DNA from: a virus
IMG/VR virus record: IMGVR_UViG_3300021373_002342
Span: 28,206-92,205 of that record
DNA length: 64,000 bases
Strand: one strand, 5' to 3'
The notes under the pieces are model-generated. The model saw nothing but the letters and a program-made list of their open reading frames with translations, had not been told where the DNA came from and searched no databases. Made by a program: the position numbers and the translations under genes. How positions within the stretch are numbered: position 1 is the first letter of the stretch; each line of letters opens with the position of its first letter. Below are positions 40,051 to 46,786 of the stretch, one piece after another.

Positions 40051-40491
40051 TTATTTCTTTATAAAATACCAATGGTCGTCTTCATAGTGTTTTTTACAAG
40101 CAGTTTCATCAAACTGTCGAGTTGTACCTCTAACAGTAATTGCAGAAAATATAACTCTACAAAACCCTACACCTTGCGGATATCCATGTACTGCTTTTAC
40201 TGCGCCCATTGCATCTTGTTCGTACCAATGTATAACTTTACCATAGTCTGATGCTAGTGCTGTATACACTGCCTGTGTTTGTTTGAGCTTTTGGTCTTTG
40301 TCCAAACTGTATCGATTAGCAATGTAAACATGTTGTACCGCAGAAACAATCATACTCCCGCCACCATTTGGTGCTGTAACTACAGGAGTTGATATTGTAC
40401 TACTTTGATATGGTGTTACACTACAGGCAGATAAACTAACTATTATTGCCGTTGATATTAACAATCTCAAGTGAACCGTCAAACTTTTCAC
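40051..40491 (-). CDS. Outer-membrane-type lipoprotein, unknown function
   Basis: 146 residues from GTG 40491 (AGGAG six nt upstream). Signal peptide with lipobox 'VSLSAC'. Mature part contains two Cys and a basic C-terminus. Third gene of a lipoprotein trio. Not recognised. Confidence 0.6.
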   Translation of the reverse strand: MKSLTVHLRLLISTAIIVSLSACSVTPYQSSTISTPVVTAPNGGGSMIVSAVQHVYIANRYSLDKDQKLKQTQAVYTALASDYGKVIHWYEQDAMGAVKAVHGYPQGVGFCRVIFSAITVRGTTRQFDETACKKHYEDDHWYFIKK

Positions 40492-40762
40492 AGGCTACTC
40501 CTTTTTGTTTTACAAGGTTACCATTACGTCTCTCAGTGTACCAAAACTCTCTGCAAGATGCATCAACACCAGCACGTTGTATTGCTGTTTGTTGTCCAGG
40601 TCTATCTGTACATTGAAGGACTGTTTCACTGCCTACTTGATTGCCATTACTCATTGTAATAGTTTCATCAGTATAACAGTAAGGAGCAGTATAATTGTAC
40701 TGTGTACTACTACATGCTCCTAAGAACAGTATACTAGTTAGCAGAAGCGATAGCCGTTGCAT
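40436..40762 (-). CDS. Small lipoprotein, unknown function
   Basis: 108 residues, lipobox 'LFLGAC', then a Cys-rich mature part (YCYTDE, VLQCTD, ASCREFWY, GVACEKF). Overlaps both neighbouring lipoprotein genes, so all three are probably co-translated. Confidence 0.6.
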   Translation of the reverse strand: MQRLSLLLTSILFLGACSSTQYNYTAPYCYTDETITMSNGNQVGSETVLQCTDRPGQQTAIQRAGVDASCREFWYTERRNGNLVKQKGVACEKFDGSLEIVNINGNNS

Positions 40763-41240
40763 CTTTAGCCTCAGTAATTAGTCTGTCAAATGTTTCGAGT
40801 GGCATTTTAATACGCACATAGGTGTGTACATGACCAGTGCTTGCTAGTTGATAAGACTTTTTCTTAACTTCTAAATGCTCTCTAATAACAGTATCTTCTA
40901 CAGAGTGCTTTACATAAGTCTGTGTAGTGCGCAGATCATTATTAATGTCTACTTCAGTAAAACTATTTACTGTACCATTAATGCGTTCTGCAAATCCTTT
41001 GACAGCAAATGCATATGCTTGTGCTTCACTTGCTTGTTCATATCTACTTTCGCCCATGCCACATGCATATGCGTAGTCAGTTTTCCAAAACAAGAAACCT
41101 TCAGATCCGATTTGTTCGCAATCTTCATACCAATTAGGATTGGCTTTAGTTTCTCTTACTTCGATTGTTTTCATTGAGCTACACGCACCTAGTCCAATAA
41201 GAAGTGCGCCCAAACTCAATGCCTTAATTGTGCCTTTCAT
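40734..41240 (-). CDS. LPP20-like lipoprotein
   Basis: 168 residues from ATG 41240: GGAGG lies 5-10 nt before it, while the earlier in-frame ATG at 41252 overlaps that ribosome site. Lipobox 'LIGLGAC'; 'NPNWYEDC', 'ACGMGESRYEQASEAQAYAFA' and 'VRIKMP' resemble LPP20 lipoproteins, which in bacteria sometimes accompany CsgG-like genes. Driven by a consensus promoter. Confidence 0.68.
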   Translation of the reverse strand: MKGTIKALSLGALLIGLGACSSMKTIEVRETKANPNWYEDCEQIGSEGFLFWKTDYAYACGMGESRYEQASEAQAYAFAVKGFAERINGTVNSFTEVDINNDLRTTQTYVKHSVEDTVIREHLEVKKKSYQLASTGHVHTYVRIKMPLETFDRLITEAKDATAIASAN

Positions 41241-41271
41241 ATATGCCTCCATTAGGTCATTTAATTTTTAA

Positions 41272-41300
41272 AGTATACAACCACACGTTTACATTGTCAA
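41272..41300 (-). promoter_or_regulatory. Sigma70-type promoter of the lipoprotein operon
   Basis: TTGACA, 17 nt, TATACT, 32 nt before ATG 41240. Confidence 0.75.
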
Positions 41301-41303
41301 CCA

Positions 41304-41822
41304 TTATTTTTCCCATCGGTAAAATATATGATCTTCAATTTCGATTGTTTTAGTTTTAGTTTTAGCCCATGCAGGCATTACATAATCTGCATGGTAGTGA
41401 GTTGCACCTTCGGTAATATCTACTACAGTGATTTCACCTCGTACAACAAGTGCGGCTAAACTATAAATCTCATTATAGACTTTTTGGTCATAGATAGTAT
41501 CAGCCTTGCCATCGCAATACCAACTAAACTGGCAACGATTTCGTACAGGAATCATTTCTCCTGTGCCTTTCCAACTGGGTCGAGTTGGACCTTGTTTTAC
41601 AACTTCACAAACTGTATCAGGATATCTGTCATCTTGAACCCTATTTGATGTAACTGCAATAACTGCTAGTCGTCCAGCGGTTCCCTGTCCACGAGCTTCG
41701 TGATAGACGTTTTGAGCCATACACTCAACTTGTTTTTCTAACCACACGTTGTCTGATGTTTTTGCTTCGTTGACGGGTGATACTGAAAGGATAGTTGTTA
41801 GAATAATTTCAGAAATAGTCAT
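41304..41822 (-). CDS. SleB/CwlJ-type cell-wall hydrolase (candidate endolysin)
   Basis: 172 residues. Short N-terminal hydrophobic segment that could be a signal. 'NVYHEARGQGTAGRLAVIAVTSNRV' holds the catalytic Glu of the SleB family; 'CQFSWYCDG' and 'ATHYHADYVMPAWA' complete the domain. Likely cleaves peptidoglycan during lysis. No holin is identified with certainty nearby. Confidence 0.85.
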   Translation of the reverse strand: MTISEIILTTILSVSPVNEAKTSDNVWLEKQVECMAQNVYHEARGQGTAGRLAVIAVTSNRVQDDRYPDTVCEVVKQGPTRPSWKGTGEMIPVRNRCQFSWYCDGKADTIYDQKVYNEIYSLAALVVRGEITVVDITEGATHYHADYVMPAWAKTKTKTIEIEDHIFYRWEK

Positions 41823-41825
41823 TTG

Positions 41826-42257
41826 TTACCTCCGCATTTTGGCTATTTCTTCAGCCTGTTTTGTTCCTCGCATTACTGGTACTGCGTTTGACTTGTGCAT
41901 TGTAGCAATACCAACAATAAGATCGCCAGTATATTTCATAGGTTCTTTTCTAGTGCCACCACCTGTTGGTATGCTGTTTGTTAGTGATGGATAGTTTGGG
42001 GTTTCACGTTGATAACTTTGATCTCCTTTATAGGGAACAAATTCACGTTTAGTCTTAGGTTTGCTCTCGCCTCTACAATATGCAATATAATCTTCTAGTT
42101 TTTCATACTGAAGATCATGCATATGATTTTTGCGCATTGATTTATTATGTTGACGCCATTGAACAGTGTATTGTTCAATTTGCTTTTGTGTTAGAGGTTT
42201 CTTCTTACGCTTTTTGGTATTGATGGTTGTAAGGCCTCTAGCCAAATGCATAGTCAT
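41826..42257 (-). CDS. Conserved marine-phage protein
   Basis: 143 residues, very basic N-terminus ('LARGLTTINTKKRKKKPLT') as I recall from many marine T4-like phages, function unknown. Its ribosome site AGGAG is part of the 3' arm of the terminator hairpin at 42258-42308, and its promoter lies inside the 5' arm. Confidence 0.65.
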   Translation of the reverse strand: MTMHLARGLTTINTKKRKKKPLTQKQIEQYTVQWRQHNKSMRKNHMHDLQYEKLEDYIAYCRGESKPKTKREFVPYKGDQSYQRETPNYPSLTNSIPTGGGTRKEPMKYTGDLIVGIATMHKSNAVPVMRGTKQAEEIAKMRR

Positions 42258-42308
42258 AAAAAAACTCCTGCTATTTTGTTAATAGTAAAACTATTATAGC
42301 AGGAGTTT
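42258..42308 (-). terminator. Terminator hairpin containing a promoter -10 box and a ribosome site
   Basis: AAACTCCTGCTAT ... ATAGCAGGAGTTT (13 pairs, 21-nt loop) followed by T's up to the ATG at 42257. It should stop read-through from the gene at 42328-42573. The TATAAT box of promoter 42293-42321 lies at the 5' arm, so transcripts starting there lack that arm. Confidence 0.75.
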
Positions 42309-42321
42309 AGTAAGGTGTCAA
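42293..42321 (-). promoter_or_regulatory. Sigma70-type promoter inside a terminator stem
   Basis: TTGACA, 17 nt, TATAAT, perfect consensus; start expected in the hairpin loop. Confidence 0.78.
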
Positions 42322-42573: not shown

Positions 42574-42628
42574 TTAGGGCCTCCTTTATAAAAATTAATA
42601 AACATACTAATTTTCTTAGTATTCTATT

Positions 42629-42657
42629 ATTATACGGTCGCCCTAATGTATTGTCAA
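42629..42657 (-). promoter_or_regulatory. Sigma70-type promoter
   Basis: TTGACA, 17 nt, TATAAT, followed by a short ATACTAA/TTAGTAT stem in the leader. Confidence 0.78.
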
Positions 42658-43145
42658 CCTTTTTCTTCCATTAATTTTACAGCCGCATCATAATCTTCTT
42701 GTTTGATTACACCTTCGCGCAATAGTTTTGCTCTATTGGCTTCGTGTTTCATTTGCACTTCTTCTTTGCTTCCGCCAAAGTATGCAACTGCATGTCCTTC
42801 TTCAATAAGAATATCTGTAACTTTTGCCCAGCGATCGTGTGTACCATCGTAAACTCTAAAATCACCTAAGATACGTCCGAACTTGCCTTTCATATCTTCG
42901 CCTTTGCGATCTTCTGTGGTAATAAGTTTGCCACCGTTCTTCATAAGTTCCTTTAGTCTTGCCTTTGCGGCTTCACCAAATAGATCTTCTACTTTGTCTC
43001 TTGTTCTCGATTCTGGAGTGTCAATGCCCATAATACGAACACGTTCGTCTTTTAAACATACGCCAAATCCTAGATCAATATCTACATCAACTGTGTCGCC
43101 GTCGACGACTTTTAATACAGTAACATCATACTCGTTTTGTGTCAT
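42654..43145 (-). CDS. Staphylococcal-nuclease-like (thermonuclease) protein
   Basis: 163 residues. 'VLKVVDGDTVDVDIDLGFG' and 'RVRIMGIDTPE' are the SNase core with the calcium Asp and active-site Arg, and a second active-site block lies near 'TEDRKGEDMKGKFGRILGDF'. No signal peptide, so it is a cytoplasmic nuclease, possibly for host DNA or RNA breakdown. A strong palindrome lies in its promoter. Confidence 0.88.
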   Translation of the reverse strand: MTQNEYDVTVLKVVDGDTVDVDIDLGFGVCLKDERVRIMGIDTPESRTRDKVEDLFGEAAKARLKELMKNGGKLITTEDRKGEDMKGKFGRILGDFRVYDGTHDRWAKVTDILIEEGHAVAYFGGSKEEVQMKHEANRAKLLREGVIKQEDYDAAVKLMEEKG

Positions 43146-43160
43146 TTGGATTATCCCCTC

Positions 43161-43189
43161 TAAATAATATGCCCATATTATTTAGTCAA
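43161..43189 (-). promoter_or_regulatory. Promoter with an 11-bp palindromic operator-like repeat
   Basis: TTGACT, 17 nt, TATTTA. The whole interval 43161-43184 is TAAATAATATG-CC-CATATTATTTA (plus strand), a perfect 11-bp inverted repeat covering the -10 box. Confidence 0.55.
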
Positions 43190-43218
43190 AAATAAAGGGG
43201 CAAGTTTCCCTGCCCCTT
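43189..43218 (-). terminator. Intrinsic terminator after the exported protein gene
   Basis: AAGGGGCA-GGGAAACT-TGCCCCTT then TATTTTT on the minus strand. The T-run runs into the -35 box of the nuclease promoter. Confidence 0.85.
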
Positions 43219-44404: not shown

Positions 44405-44488
44405 TTTATTATTTCCTTTATTTTTGTTTGCCACCTGGCAAACACAATACTTACTTATGATGGATAACTATTTTTATGTTTAATTCTG

Positions 44489-44518
44489 GCAGAAAAGAAA
44501 AGCACCCGAAGGTGCTTT
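44489..44518 (-). terminator. Intrinsic terminator of the tmRNA transcript
   Basis: AAAGCACC-TTCG-GGTGCTTT with a UUCG tetraloop, then TCTTTTCT. Confidence 0.88.
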
Positions 44519-44524
44519 CCTGCT

Positions 44525-44672
44525 ATTTTTGGTAACAAGGTATAACTACCCCGTAGCGATCACGCCGCTAATGCAAAGTTTTCGTTTGCGTTTGTTTTGT
44601 TTCTTGCGTTAACCGAGCTTGCGCCGGACAACTCCACTCATCTATGCCGTGTATCGATCCTAGTTCGCCCCC
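44525..44672 (-). ncRNA. ssrA: tmRNA, coding piece of a circularly permuted ssrA
   Basis: The 5' end GGGGGCG (44672-44666) pairs with CGCCTCC of the acceptor piece, with the G3-U70 alanine determinant. A short tag frame ends GCA AAC GAA AAC TTT GCA TTA GCG GCG TGA (44589-44560), encoding ANENFALAA-stop, close to the classic ANDENYALAA tag. The frame is open back to GCA at 44607, giving up to 15 codons. The tag C-terminus ALAA is a ClpXP/ClpAP signal. The 3' boundary is approximate. Confidence 0.9.
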
Positions 44673-44684
44673 ATCATAAAAACA

Positions 44685-44813
44685 CTATCCACAACACTTT
44701 GGCTTTTGTCTGCCTGCTCTCCAAGCACGGAAATCAATAACCCATTTCGTCACACACATTCCTAGTAGTGCGGCTAAACTTGTGTATTGTATTCCTGTCC
44801 AAATTAATGCCAT
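44685..44813 (-). CDS. 42-residue membrane peptide encoded inside the tmRNA intervening segment
   Basis: ATG 44813 with AAGGACAC upstream, ending TAG 44685. Residues 2-24 are hydrophobic, then 'WRAGRQKPKCCG'. It lies wholly between the acceptor 3' end and the coding 5' end of the permuted tmRNA, a segment normally cut out and discarded. Codon usage and ribosome site look genuine, but translation is unproven. Confidence 0.55.
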   Translation of the reverse strand: MALIWTGIQYTSLAALLGMCVTKWVIDFRAWRAGRQKPKCCG

Positions 44814-44826
44814 TATAGTGTCCTTA

Positions 44827-44887
44827 TGGTGGAGGCGCCGGGTACCGCCCCCGGGTCTACTCCGTCGTCAAATTGCTTCAACATTGT
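44827..44887 (-). ncRNA. ssrA: tmRNA, acceptor piece of a circularly permuted ssrA
   Basis: T arm CCGGG-GGCGGTA-CCCGG (44838-44854), acceptor strand CGCCTCC, A discriminator and encoded CCA ending at 44827. Transcribed before the coding piece, as in two-piece tmRNAs of alphaproteobacteria. The T loop is not the usual TTCRANY. The 5' end is taken from the promoter position. Confidence 0.88.
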
Positions 44888-44893
44888 ATATTA

Positions 44894-44923
44894 TTTATAA
44901 CACACTCAGACCGAGTAAGTCAA
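44894..44923 (-). promoter_or_regulatory. Sigma70-type promoter of the tmRNA
   Basis: TTGACT, 18 nt, TATAAA, lying entirely within the last codons and stop of the gene at 44895-45209. Confidence 0.65.
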
Positions 44924-45209: not shown

Positions 45210-45438
45210 TCTTTTTTATTTTATTACTTTCATGTTTTATTAGTAGTGCATTGACTTCATCTGTTTTACGCAACCAACCGTCTTCATCTACTATGTAAAC
45301 ATCACCTGGGCTATATAAGACGGTCTTGTCAGGAATTTTATTACCATCCTTATCAAAGCCCATTACTTCTCCGGGCCAGTCGCCTTCTACTCTAAATCTA
45401 TTTAATCCGCTATGTACCGTATAATCTATCCAAAACAT
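45199..45438 (-). CDS. Small hypothetical phage protein
   Basis: 79 residues, beta-rich ('DKTVLYSPGDVYIVDEDGWL'), basic tail. Overlaps SHMT by one nt and the next gene by 11 nt. Confidence 0.5.
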   Translation of the reverse strand: MFWIDYTVHSGLNRFRVEGDWPGEVMGFDKDGNKIPDKTVLYSPGDVYIVDEDGWLRKTDEVNALLIKHESNKIKKNEV

Positions 45439-46577
45439 TAACTCAATATATCAGCGATACGATGTGCTAATTTATTAAACCACATTTTATCGTGTCCTTT
45501 TGTTGTCTCTGCGGCTGTGCCTATTCTAATACCGCTTGTTTCGACAAAAGAACGTGGATCATTTGGCACACCGTTTTTATTGACAGTGATGCCGTTTTCT
45601 TCTAGTAAGTCAGCGGCTTCTCTGCCACTGTATTTACTACTAGACAAGTCCATAAGAATTATATGCGAATCAGTACCTCCTGTGAGTATTTTGATGCCAC
45701 GCTCGTTAAACACTGCACACATTTCTTGTGCATTATCAACAACACGGCATGCATAATGACGGAAGTCAGGGTCATTTGCTTCTACAAATGCTTGTGCTTT
45801 GGCAGCAATAATGTTCATTAGTGGACCGCCTTGTGTTCCTGGAAAGATTGCTGAATTAATTTTCTTTGTATAGGCTGCATTGTTCCAAAGAATAATACCG
45901 CCACGTGGGCCTCTTAGAGTTTTATGTGTAGTTGATGTAACAAAATCTGCATAAGGTATAGGACTTGGATATGCATGTCCTGCAACAAGACCCGAGTAAT
46001 GTGCCATGTCAACTAATAGATAAGCACCTACATGATCTGCAATTACTCTAAATGCTTCCCAATCAATTTGTCTTGGATATGCACTTGCACCAGCGACAAT
46101 CATTTTAGGTTTAACTTCAACTGCTTGTTTCATTATAGCATCATAGTCTAGCCAACCTGCTTCGTCTACACCATAGTGATGTGCTTCATAAACTTTACCA
46201 GAAATATTTACAGGTGCACCATGGCTTAAATGGCCGCCGCTTGCTAGATCCATTCCAAGTATACGATCGCCTGGCTTTAAAAATGCAAGATAAATTGCAG
46301 TGTTTGCATTGGCTCCACAGTGAGGTTGGACGTTAGCAAACTCACATTCATATATTTCTTTAAGTTGATCTATTGCAAATTGCTCAATTTCGTCCATATG
46401 CTCGCAGCCGTTGTAATAACGCTTGCCTGGATAACCTTCTGCATACTTGTTAGTAAACACTGAACCACATAGATTCATTACACTATGGCTTGCAAAGTTT
46501 TCACTTGCAATTAATTCAATAGTAGAATGTTGCCTGTCTACTTCTCTATCTAAAATTTCGTATATTCGTTTATCCAT
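45438..46577 (-). CDS. glyA: Serine hydroxymethyltransferase
   Basis: 379 residues from ATG 46577 (TAATG overlap). 'IELIASENFAS', 'NKYAEGYPGKRYY', 'VQPHCGANAN' and the PLP-lysine site 'TSTTHKTLRGPRGG' are all present. It converts serine and THF to glycine and methylene-THF, feeding thymidylate and purine synthesis. About 35 residues shorter than typical bacterial SHMT, mostly at the C-terminus. Uncommon in phages. Confidence 0.93.
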   Translation of the reverse strand: MDKRIYEILDREVDRQHSTIELIASENFASHSVMNLCGSVFTNKYAEGYPGKRYYNGCEHMDEIEQFAIDQLKEIYECEFANVQPHCGANANTAIYLAFLKPGDRILGMDLASGGHLSHGAPVNISGKVYEAHHYGVDEAGWLDYDAIMKQAVEVKPKMIVAGASAYPRQIDWEAFRVIADHVGAYLLVDMAHYSGLVAGHAYPSPIPYADFVTSTTHKTLRGPRGGIILWNNAAYTKKINSAIFPGTQGGPLMNIIAAKAQAFVEANDPDFRHYACRVVDNAQEMCAVFNERGIKILTGGTDSHIILMDLSSSKYSGREAADLLEENGITVNKNGVPNDPRSFVETSGIRIGTAAETTKGHDKMWFNKLAHRIADILS

Positions 46578-46786
46578 TACCAAATTCCTAAAGTTTTACT
46601 GTTACCAAGGATAATCATTACACAAGTAACTATGTGAAGCACTATCCAAAAGGTGCGAAAAGCCAGTGCCTTCTTTACATCCTTTTGAGATATAGGAAGG
46701 AATTCTGGCTTATCGTCGTCTGTTATGCCTATGGGCATACCAACGGTTCGTGCCCAAGTTTTGAGCCAACGCCGTTGCCCGCTCAT
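46577..46786 (-). CDS. Small conserved membrane protein
   Basis: 69 residues. 'WARTVGMPIGITDDDKPEF' then a C-terminal membrane helix 'TFWIVLHIVTCVMIILGN'. Conserved in marine T4-like phages as I recall. Overlaps both neighbouring genes by start/stop fusion. Confidence 0.62.
   Translation of the reverse strand: MSGQRRWLKTWARTVGMPIGITDDDKPEFLPISQKDVKKALAFRTFWIVLHIVTCVMIILGNSKTLGIW

Follow-up and report, generated by a model that had tools for sequence, protein, structure and literature searches.

Translational control by a leader structure that is present in one transcript and missing from another has been described for the lysozyme gene e of phage T4. There, long early transcripts hide the ribosome site, and transcripts from the late promoter, which start just upstream and lack the 5' part of the structure, are translated (PMC3014915). 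The structure lowers lysozyme synthesis 100-fold (PMC3014915). The same control applies to I-TevI and other homing endonucleases (PMC2988022), and T4 leaders of related type include those of gene e, soc, 49 and I-TevI (PMC3014915, PMC2988022). The element reported here was found in an IMG/VR virus record of 92,205 bases, within a stretch of 64,000 nucleotides that we refer to as the window. It resembled the gene e leader in that the Shine-Dalgarno sequence was predicted to be paired in the long RNA and in that the promoter was placed so that its RNA would lack the 5' arm of the stem (start and arm positions in Table 1). Moreover, gene e functions in lysis, and the unit here had a hydrolase as its second gene. 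Unlike in gene e, the promoter was of the sigma70-type consensus rather than a T4 late promoter, the same stem carried a U run after the ribosome site, and the first gene and the hydrolase came from other families. Since a sigma70-type promoter and a putative terminator U run shared one stem, the element fell outside the T4 late-promoter group.

Insertion sequences face a comparable problem. In Tn10/IS10, Davis et al. (1985) reportedly observed that read-through RNA from outside folds and blocks transposase translation and that transcripts of the internal promoter are free of this block; in IS200, Beuzon et al. (1999) are said to have found a terminator combined with hiding of the ribosome site. 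The present element would share with IS10 and IS200 the protection against read-through from outside promoters. It differed from them in that two ordinary phage genes followed, namely the phrog_27048 gene and a cell-wall hydrolase, rather than a transposase at the end of an insertion sequence, and in the fusion of promoter, stem, ribosome site and U run within about 65 bases. Related protection of insertion sequences against outside promoters was also cited in a 2010 paper, which considered terminators that hide a ribosome site realistic, at that time without experimental demonstration (PMC2965389). As in such bifunctional terminators, one hairpin would act here on both transcription and translation; unlike those of PMC2965389, it had a promoter embedded in it. 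An ordinary terminator followed by a promoter, as found after the upstream 81-aa gene in many relatives, likewise ends one unit and starts the next, but its parts are separate and the ribosome site is untouched. Within the library searched, we found no description of a promoter, a terminator and a ribosome-site lock in one stem, which does not by itself establish that none exists.

Anatomy of the element

The element was located between an 81-aa winged-helix gene and a 143-aa gene on the minus strand (Table 1). Its 5' to 3' order was TTGACA, 17 bases, TATAAT, a loop region and ATAGCAGGAGTTTTTTTATG, with a total length of about 65 bases. The promoter matched the consensus at 12 of 12 positions, and its 17-nt spacer ended in TGC. 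The arms AAACTCCTGCTAT and ATAGCAGGAGTTT formed a stem of 13 bp with zero mismatches. Thus, an earlier note on this DNA, which had described a perfect promoter, a 13-bp stem and an AGGAG ribosome site in the 3' arm, was accurate on these points. It had also placed TATAAT in the 5' arm, and this was correct for TAT only: the arm was made up of the end of the promoter spacer plus these three bases, and AAT fell into a nested inner hairpin, AATAGTTTTACTATT, straddling the predicted start. This inner hairpin (ATAGT-TTT-ACTAT) lay in the loop and prolonged the main fold.

Table 1. Positions in the window of the parts of the element and of the genes around it
Feature	Position	Strand	Remark
81-aa winged-helix gene, PF14090	42328-42573	minus	upstream of the element
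-35 element TTGACA	42316-42321	minus	17-nt spacer to the -10
Stem 5' arm AAACTCCTGCTAT	42296-42308	minus	the entire arm precedes the predicted start
-10 element TATAAT	42293-42298	minus	preceded by TGC (extended -10)
Predicted transcription start	42286	minus	placed 7 nt beyond the -10 by promoter geometry; coincides with the hairpin apex
Stem 3' arm ATAGCAGGAGTTT	42262-42274	minus	ribosome site inside
Shine-Dalgarno AGGAG	42265-42269	minus	7 nt before the ATG
Seven-T run	42258-42264	minus	putative terminator U tract and spacer from ribosome site to ATG
ATG of the 143-aa gene	42255-42257	minus	
143-aa gene, phrog_27048	41826-42257	minus	first gene of the putative insulated unit
172-aa cell-wall hydrolase, PF07486, phrog_938 endolysin	41304-41822	minus	second gene of the putative insulated unit

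The element had the form of an intrinsic terminator, namely a stable stem followed immediately by a U run (13 bp, seven T). The G+C content of the stem was moderate (5 of 13 pairs), its loop was large, and three T of the run were paired with AAA, so that only four T were unpaired before the ATG. Because of the modest G+C content, the large loop and the four unpaired T, termination may be partial. A simple terminator scan of the window did not list the element since the loop limit of the scan was 8. Among Rfam 15 families at gathering score, only tRNAs and tmRNA were found in the window, and the element matched no family.

The hydrolase gene started 3 nt past the stop codon of the 143-aa gene. 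The 143-aa protein had the conserved pattern KYTG...GIATMHKSN.VP; no informative family was found for it, and its structure model was of low confidence (pTM 0.37). After the hydrolase, three small minus-strand genes with lipoprotein-like signal sequences followed (40051-41252), the first of them with its own promoter at 41300; envelope or lysis functions are possible for these genes. On the other side of the element, the 81-aa gene had its own consensus promoter (42657-42629), and we found no separate terminator between this gene and the element. In its 5' leader was a small hairpin, ATACTAA-GAAAA-TTAGTAT (42604-42622, minus strand), which recurred in relatives with altered stem sequences and is possibly an autoregulatory site of the winged-helix gene.

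The window also contained some features outside this region. These were a permuted tmRNA gene of alphaproteobacterial type with the tag ANENFALAA (44469-44919, minus strand) and a serine hydroxymethyltransferase gene (45438-46583, minus strand), both in a phage contig, as well as a 12-bp perfect palindrome, CTAAATAATATG-CC-CATATTATTTAG (43160-43185), just after a terminator (43195-43218) and before a nuclease gene (42654-43145).

Stability of the fold

The read-through RNA folded at -20.4 kcal/mol (z = -7.2), and none of 200 shuffles was as good. For RNA beginning at the predicted start, the fold was -5.9 kcal/mol (z = -0.8). The pairing between promoter and ribosome site was by far the strongest at this element (at 42321) among the 21 promoter-gene pairs of the contig, and 0 of 1000 shuffles of the promoter's own spacer reached the native pairing.

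A genome-wide rule in this phage was rejected, given that only one of the 21 promoter-gene pairs in the 92-kb contig was strong. At the neighbouring promoter at 42657 there was a 7-bp match to the ribosome site (TTAGGGC/GCCCTAA), with p 0.007 in the shuffle test of that promoter. This pairing was present in only 1 of 26 homologues and looked like chance rather than a second element.

Recurrence in related phages

When the 143-aa protein and related proteins served as queries, 246 distinct upstream regions were obtained, 173 of them with a promoter. The exact stem was found in 14 other viral contigs, and the arrangement was carried by an uncultured, mostly marine branch of the 143-aa gene family (bacterial viruses). 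About eight stem classes occupied the same place: CTCCTGC/GCAGGAG, ACCCTGC/GCAGGGT, CTCCTGTT/AACAGGAG, CTATTCCGTGC, GTGTCTACCT, ATTATGTGCTAC, TTTTGCGCCTA and TTTACGCT. The arms changed together, with the pairs C-G, A-U and U-A at spacer position -7, U-A, C-G and A-U at -6, C-G and U-A at -5, and C-G, G-C and A-U at -4. These pairs were counted in a register of our own, and the best stem of each member was taken, which biases the count towards pairing. With RNAalifold, no more than five pairs were obtained from a MAFFT alignment, since the ACCCTGC members were shifted by one base in it. The loop varied from 15 to 36 nt, 15 of 374 pairs were G-U, and bulges occurred.

Swapping the arms between members gave a measure of chance pairing. 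A stem score of at least 18 was reached by 52% of the hydrolase-linked promoters versus 7% of swaps between dissimilar members, and a score of at least 25 by 3.8% versus 0.07% in swaps (316 promoters of all gene families). All stems scoring at least 25 among these 316 promoters belonged to the 143-aa gene family. Some hairpins (the TTTACGCT class and L437) preceded other genes.

The element was not found in cultured phages by DNA search. The nearest cultured homologues among those examined were from Delftia phage PhiW-14 and Melnitz, where the gene abutted its neighbours or lay a few bases behind them, so that the element would not fit between them. The annotation of the corresponding stretch in Synechococcus phage BUCT-ZZ01 was not clean.

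Other promoter arrangements were also seen in these searches. In five 143-aa homologues (L020, L027, L053, L043 and L078) the consensus promoter ended 6-7 nt before the ATG, which predicts a leaderless mRNA, so that RNA started there could be translated with no need of a ribosome site. Related contigs also had another type of fusion, with the terminator inside the promoter: a G/C-rich stem contained or overlapped TTGACA in its 5' arm, and the T run immediately preceded TATAAT within the promoter spacer (for example GGGGGTTGACATTCAACCCCTTTTTTGTTATAAT). Such sites were L211:2421 and 10615 (+), L312:1573, L325:1183, L333:1538, L339:1624 and L359:675, and one L211 case preceded a homologue of the 143-aa gene.

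Proposed ribosome-site lock and termination

We compared a strong-hairpin set of 27 elements (stem score of at least 23) with 89 homologues without the hairpin. In the hairpin elements, the mean predicted unpaired probability of the Shine-Dalgarno region was 0.08 in read-through RNA versus 0.42 in promoter-started RNA; the corresponding values in the hairpin-less homologues were 0.47 and 0.53. The lower value in read-through RNA, together with pairing that was kept while its sequence changed, suggests that read-through RNA hides the ribosome site, as the earlier note had proposed. In several relatives (L002, L005, L069, L076 and the TTTACGCT class) the ribosome site was paired in the same way with no T run. 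Therefore, the lock appeared to be the more widespread feature, with termination added to it in one large class.

A U-rich spacer, defined as six or more T among the last eight bases ahead of the ATG, was present in 21 of the 27 strong hairpins, in 3 of the 89 hairpin-less homologues and at 2 of 200 promoters of other genes. In the tree-controlled analysis, hairpin and U run were associated by 4.2 to 0.0 across 8 independent comparisons, which was not significant (p 0.125). A separate terminator before the -35 was found in none of the 27 strong-hairpin elements. The 81-aa gene family provided a second line of evidence: with another gene next, 31 of 34 distinct contexts had an ordinary terminator, and with the 143-aa gene directly next, none of four did, the composite element being in its place. 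This replacement and the distribution of U-rich spacers argue for termination of the read-through RNA. On the other hand, many promoter-bearing 143-aa homologues had no hairpin, and most of those also lacked a separate terminator; insulation was therefore not essential for the 143-aa gene as such.

Link with the hydrolase

The hydrolase was directly downstream in 25 of 38 cases with a stem score of at least 18, in 12 of 82 with a promoter and a stem score below 14, and in 1 of 70 without a promoter. The difference between the two stem groups gave a Fisher p of 6e-8 with relatedness ignored. Among the strongest stems with enough contig left, nearly all preceded the pair of 143-aa gene and hydrolase. 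With control for the tree, the independent comparisons favoured the association by about 5 to 0.5 (12 comparisons, stems of at least 18) and by 3 to 0.1 (6 comparisons, stems of at least 23), neither of which was significant. Searching from the hydrolase instead, we took the 80 closest hydrolases and found no preceding 143-aa gene at any of the 75 loci that were examined among them. Thus, the hydrolase as such did not carry the element.

Discussion

In our reading, the element probably insulates two phage transcription units from each other in both directions within a small space. Transcription entering from the 81-aa gene would copy the whole hairpin, and most transcripts would end at the U run. 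In RNA that passed this point, the hairpin would lock AGGAG so that the 143-aa protein was not made, and through the 3-nt junction the hydrolase would probably also stay silent. The embedded promoter would start RNA at the hairpin apex, without the 5' arm, and such RNA would neither stop at the U run nor have its ribosome site covered. Both the amount and the timing of expression of the hydrolase unit would then depend on its own promoter only. The earlier note had proposed that RNA from the embedded promoter escapes both blocks and that two units are thereby insulated in about 65 bases; the predicted start and the weak fold of the shorter RNA agreed with the former idea, and the comparative evidence was consistent with the latter. 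The note had named neither the hydrolase in the unit nor the relatives that have the ribosome-site pairing but no T run. As for the purpose, we think that the hydrolase unit, probably lysis-related, is kept under its own promoter alone.

Since the lock occurred without a T run in some relatives, the hairpin might act like that of T4 gene e and only block read-through translation; the T run might then be a U-rich spacer causing little termination. U-rich spacers can help translation, which also favours this explanation. However, spacers of this kind were nearly limited to hairpin elements, and the 81-aa gene had no other terminator at a place where its relatives have one, so we regard a lock without substantial termination as improbable. 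The opposite explanation, that the hairpin is mainly a terminator sharing bases with the promoter and ribosome site by accident, with functionless hiding, would fit the frequent closure of the 81-aa gene by a terminator as well as the terminator-promoter fusions of related contigs, which had no ribosome-site pairing. Nevertheless, relatives without the T run kept the ribosome-site pairing through unrelated sequences, which makes an accidental overlap very unlikely.

An inverted repeat that overlaps the -10 element and the start site could also be a DNA operator bound by a repressor or an activator, and the upstream gene does encode a winged-helix protein. But the stem sequences varied widely among relatives, and the 3' arm tracked the ribosome site rather than a fixed distance. 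The variable loops and the G-U pairs fit RNA better than a DNA operator, as do the bulges, and we disfavour the operator as having very little chance of being correct. The combination of termination and lock in one RNA hairpin thus remained our preferred explanation.

On a broader level, we give roughly even chances to the idea that the promoters of uncultured phages include a recurring self-insulating class, in which one hairpin containing the -10 stops upstream RNA and locks the ribosome site, making an endolysin-containing unit readable only from its own promoter. If so, this would be a natural case of a combined transcriptional and translational block by a single terminator hairpin, kept despite sequence turnover. 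The recurrence of many stem sequences makes the idea directly testable with reporters in laboratory bacteria, and a short natural insulator would be useful for gene circuits. For the reading of such phage genomes, it would mean that the same bases can be annotated both as a promoter and as a terminator. Compact genomes must stop leakage between neighbouring genes, and the element would do so at two levels and at the same time supply the promoter.
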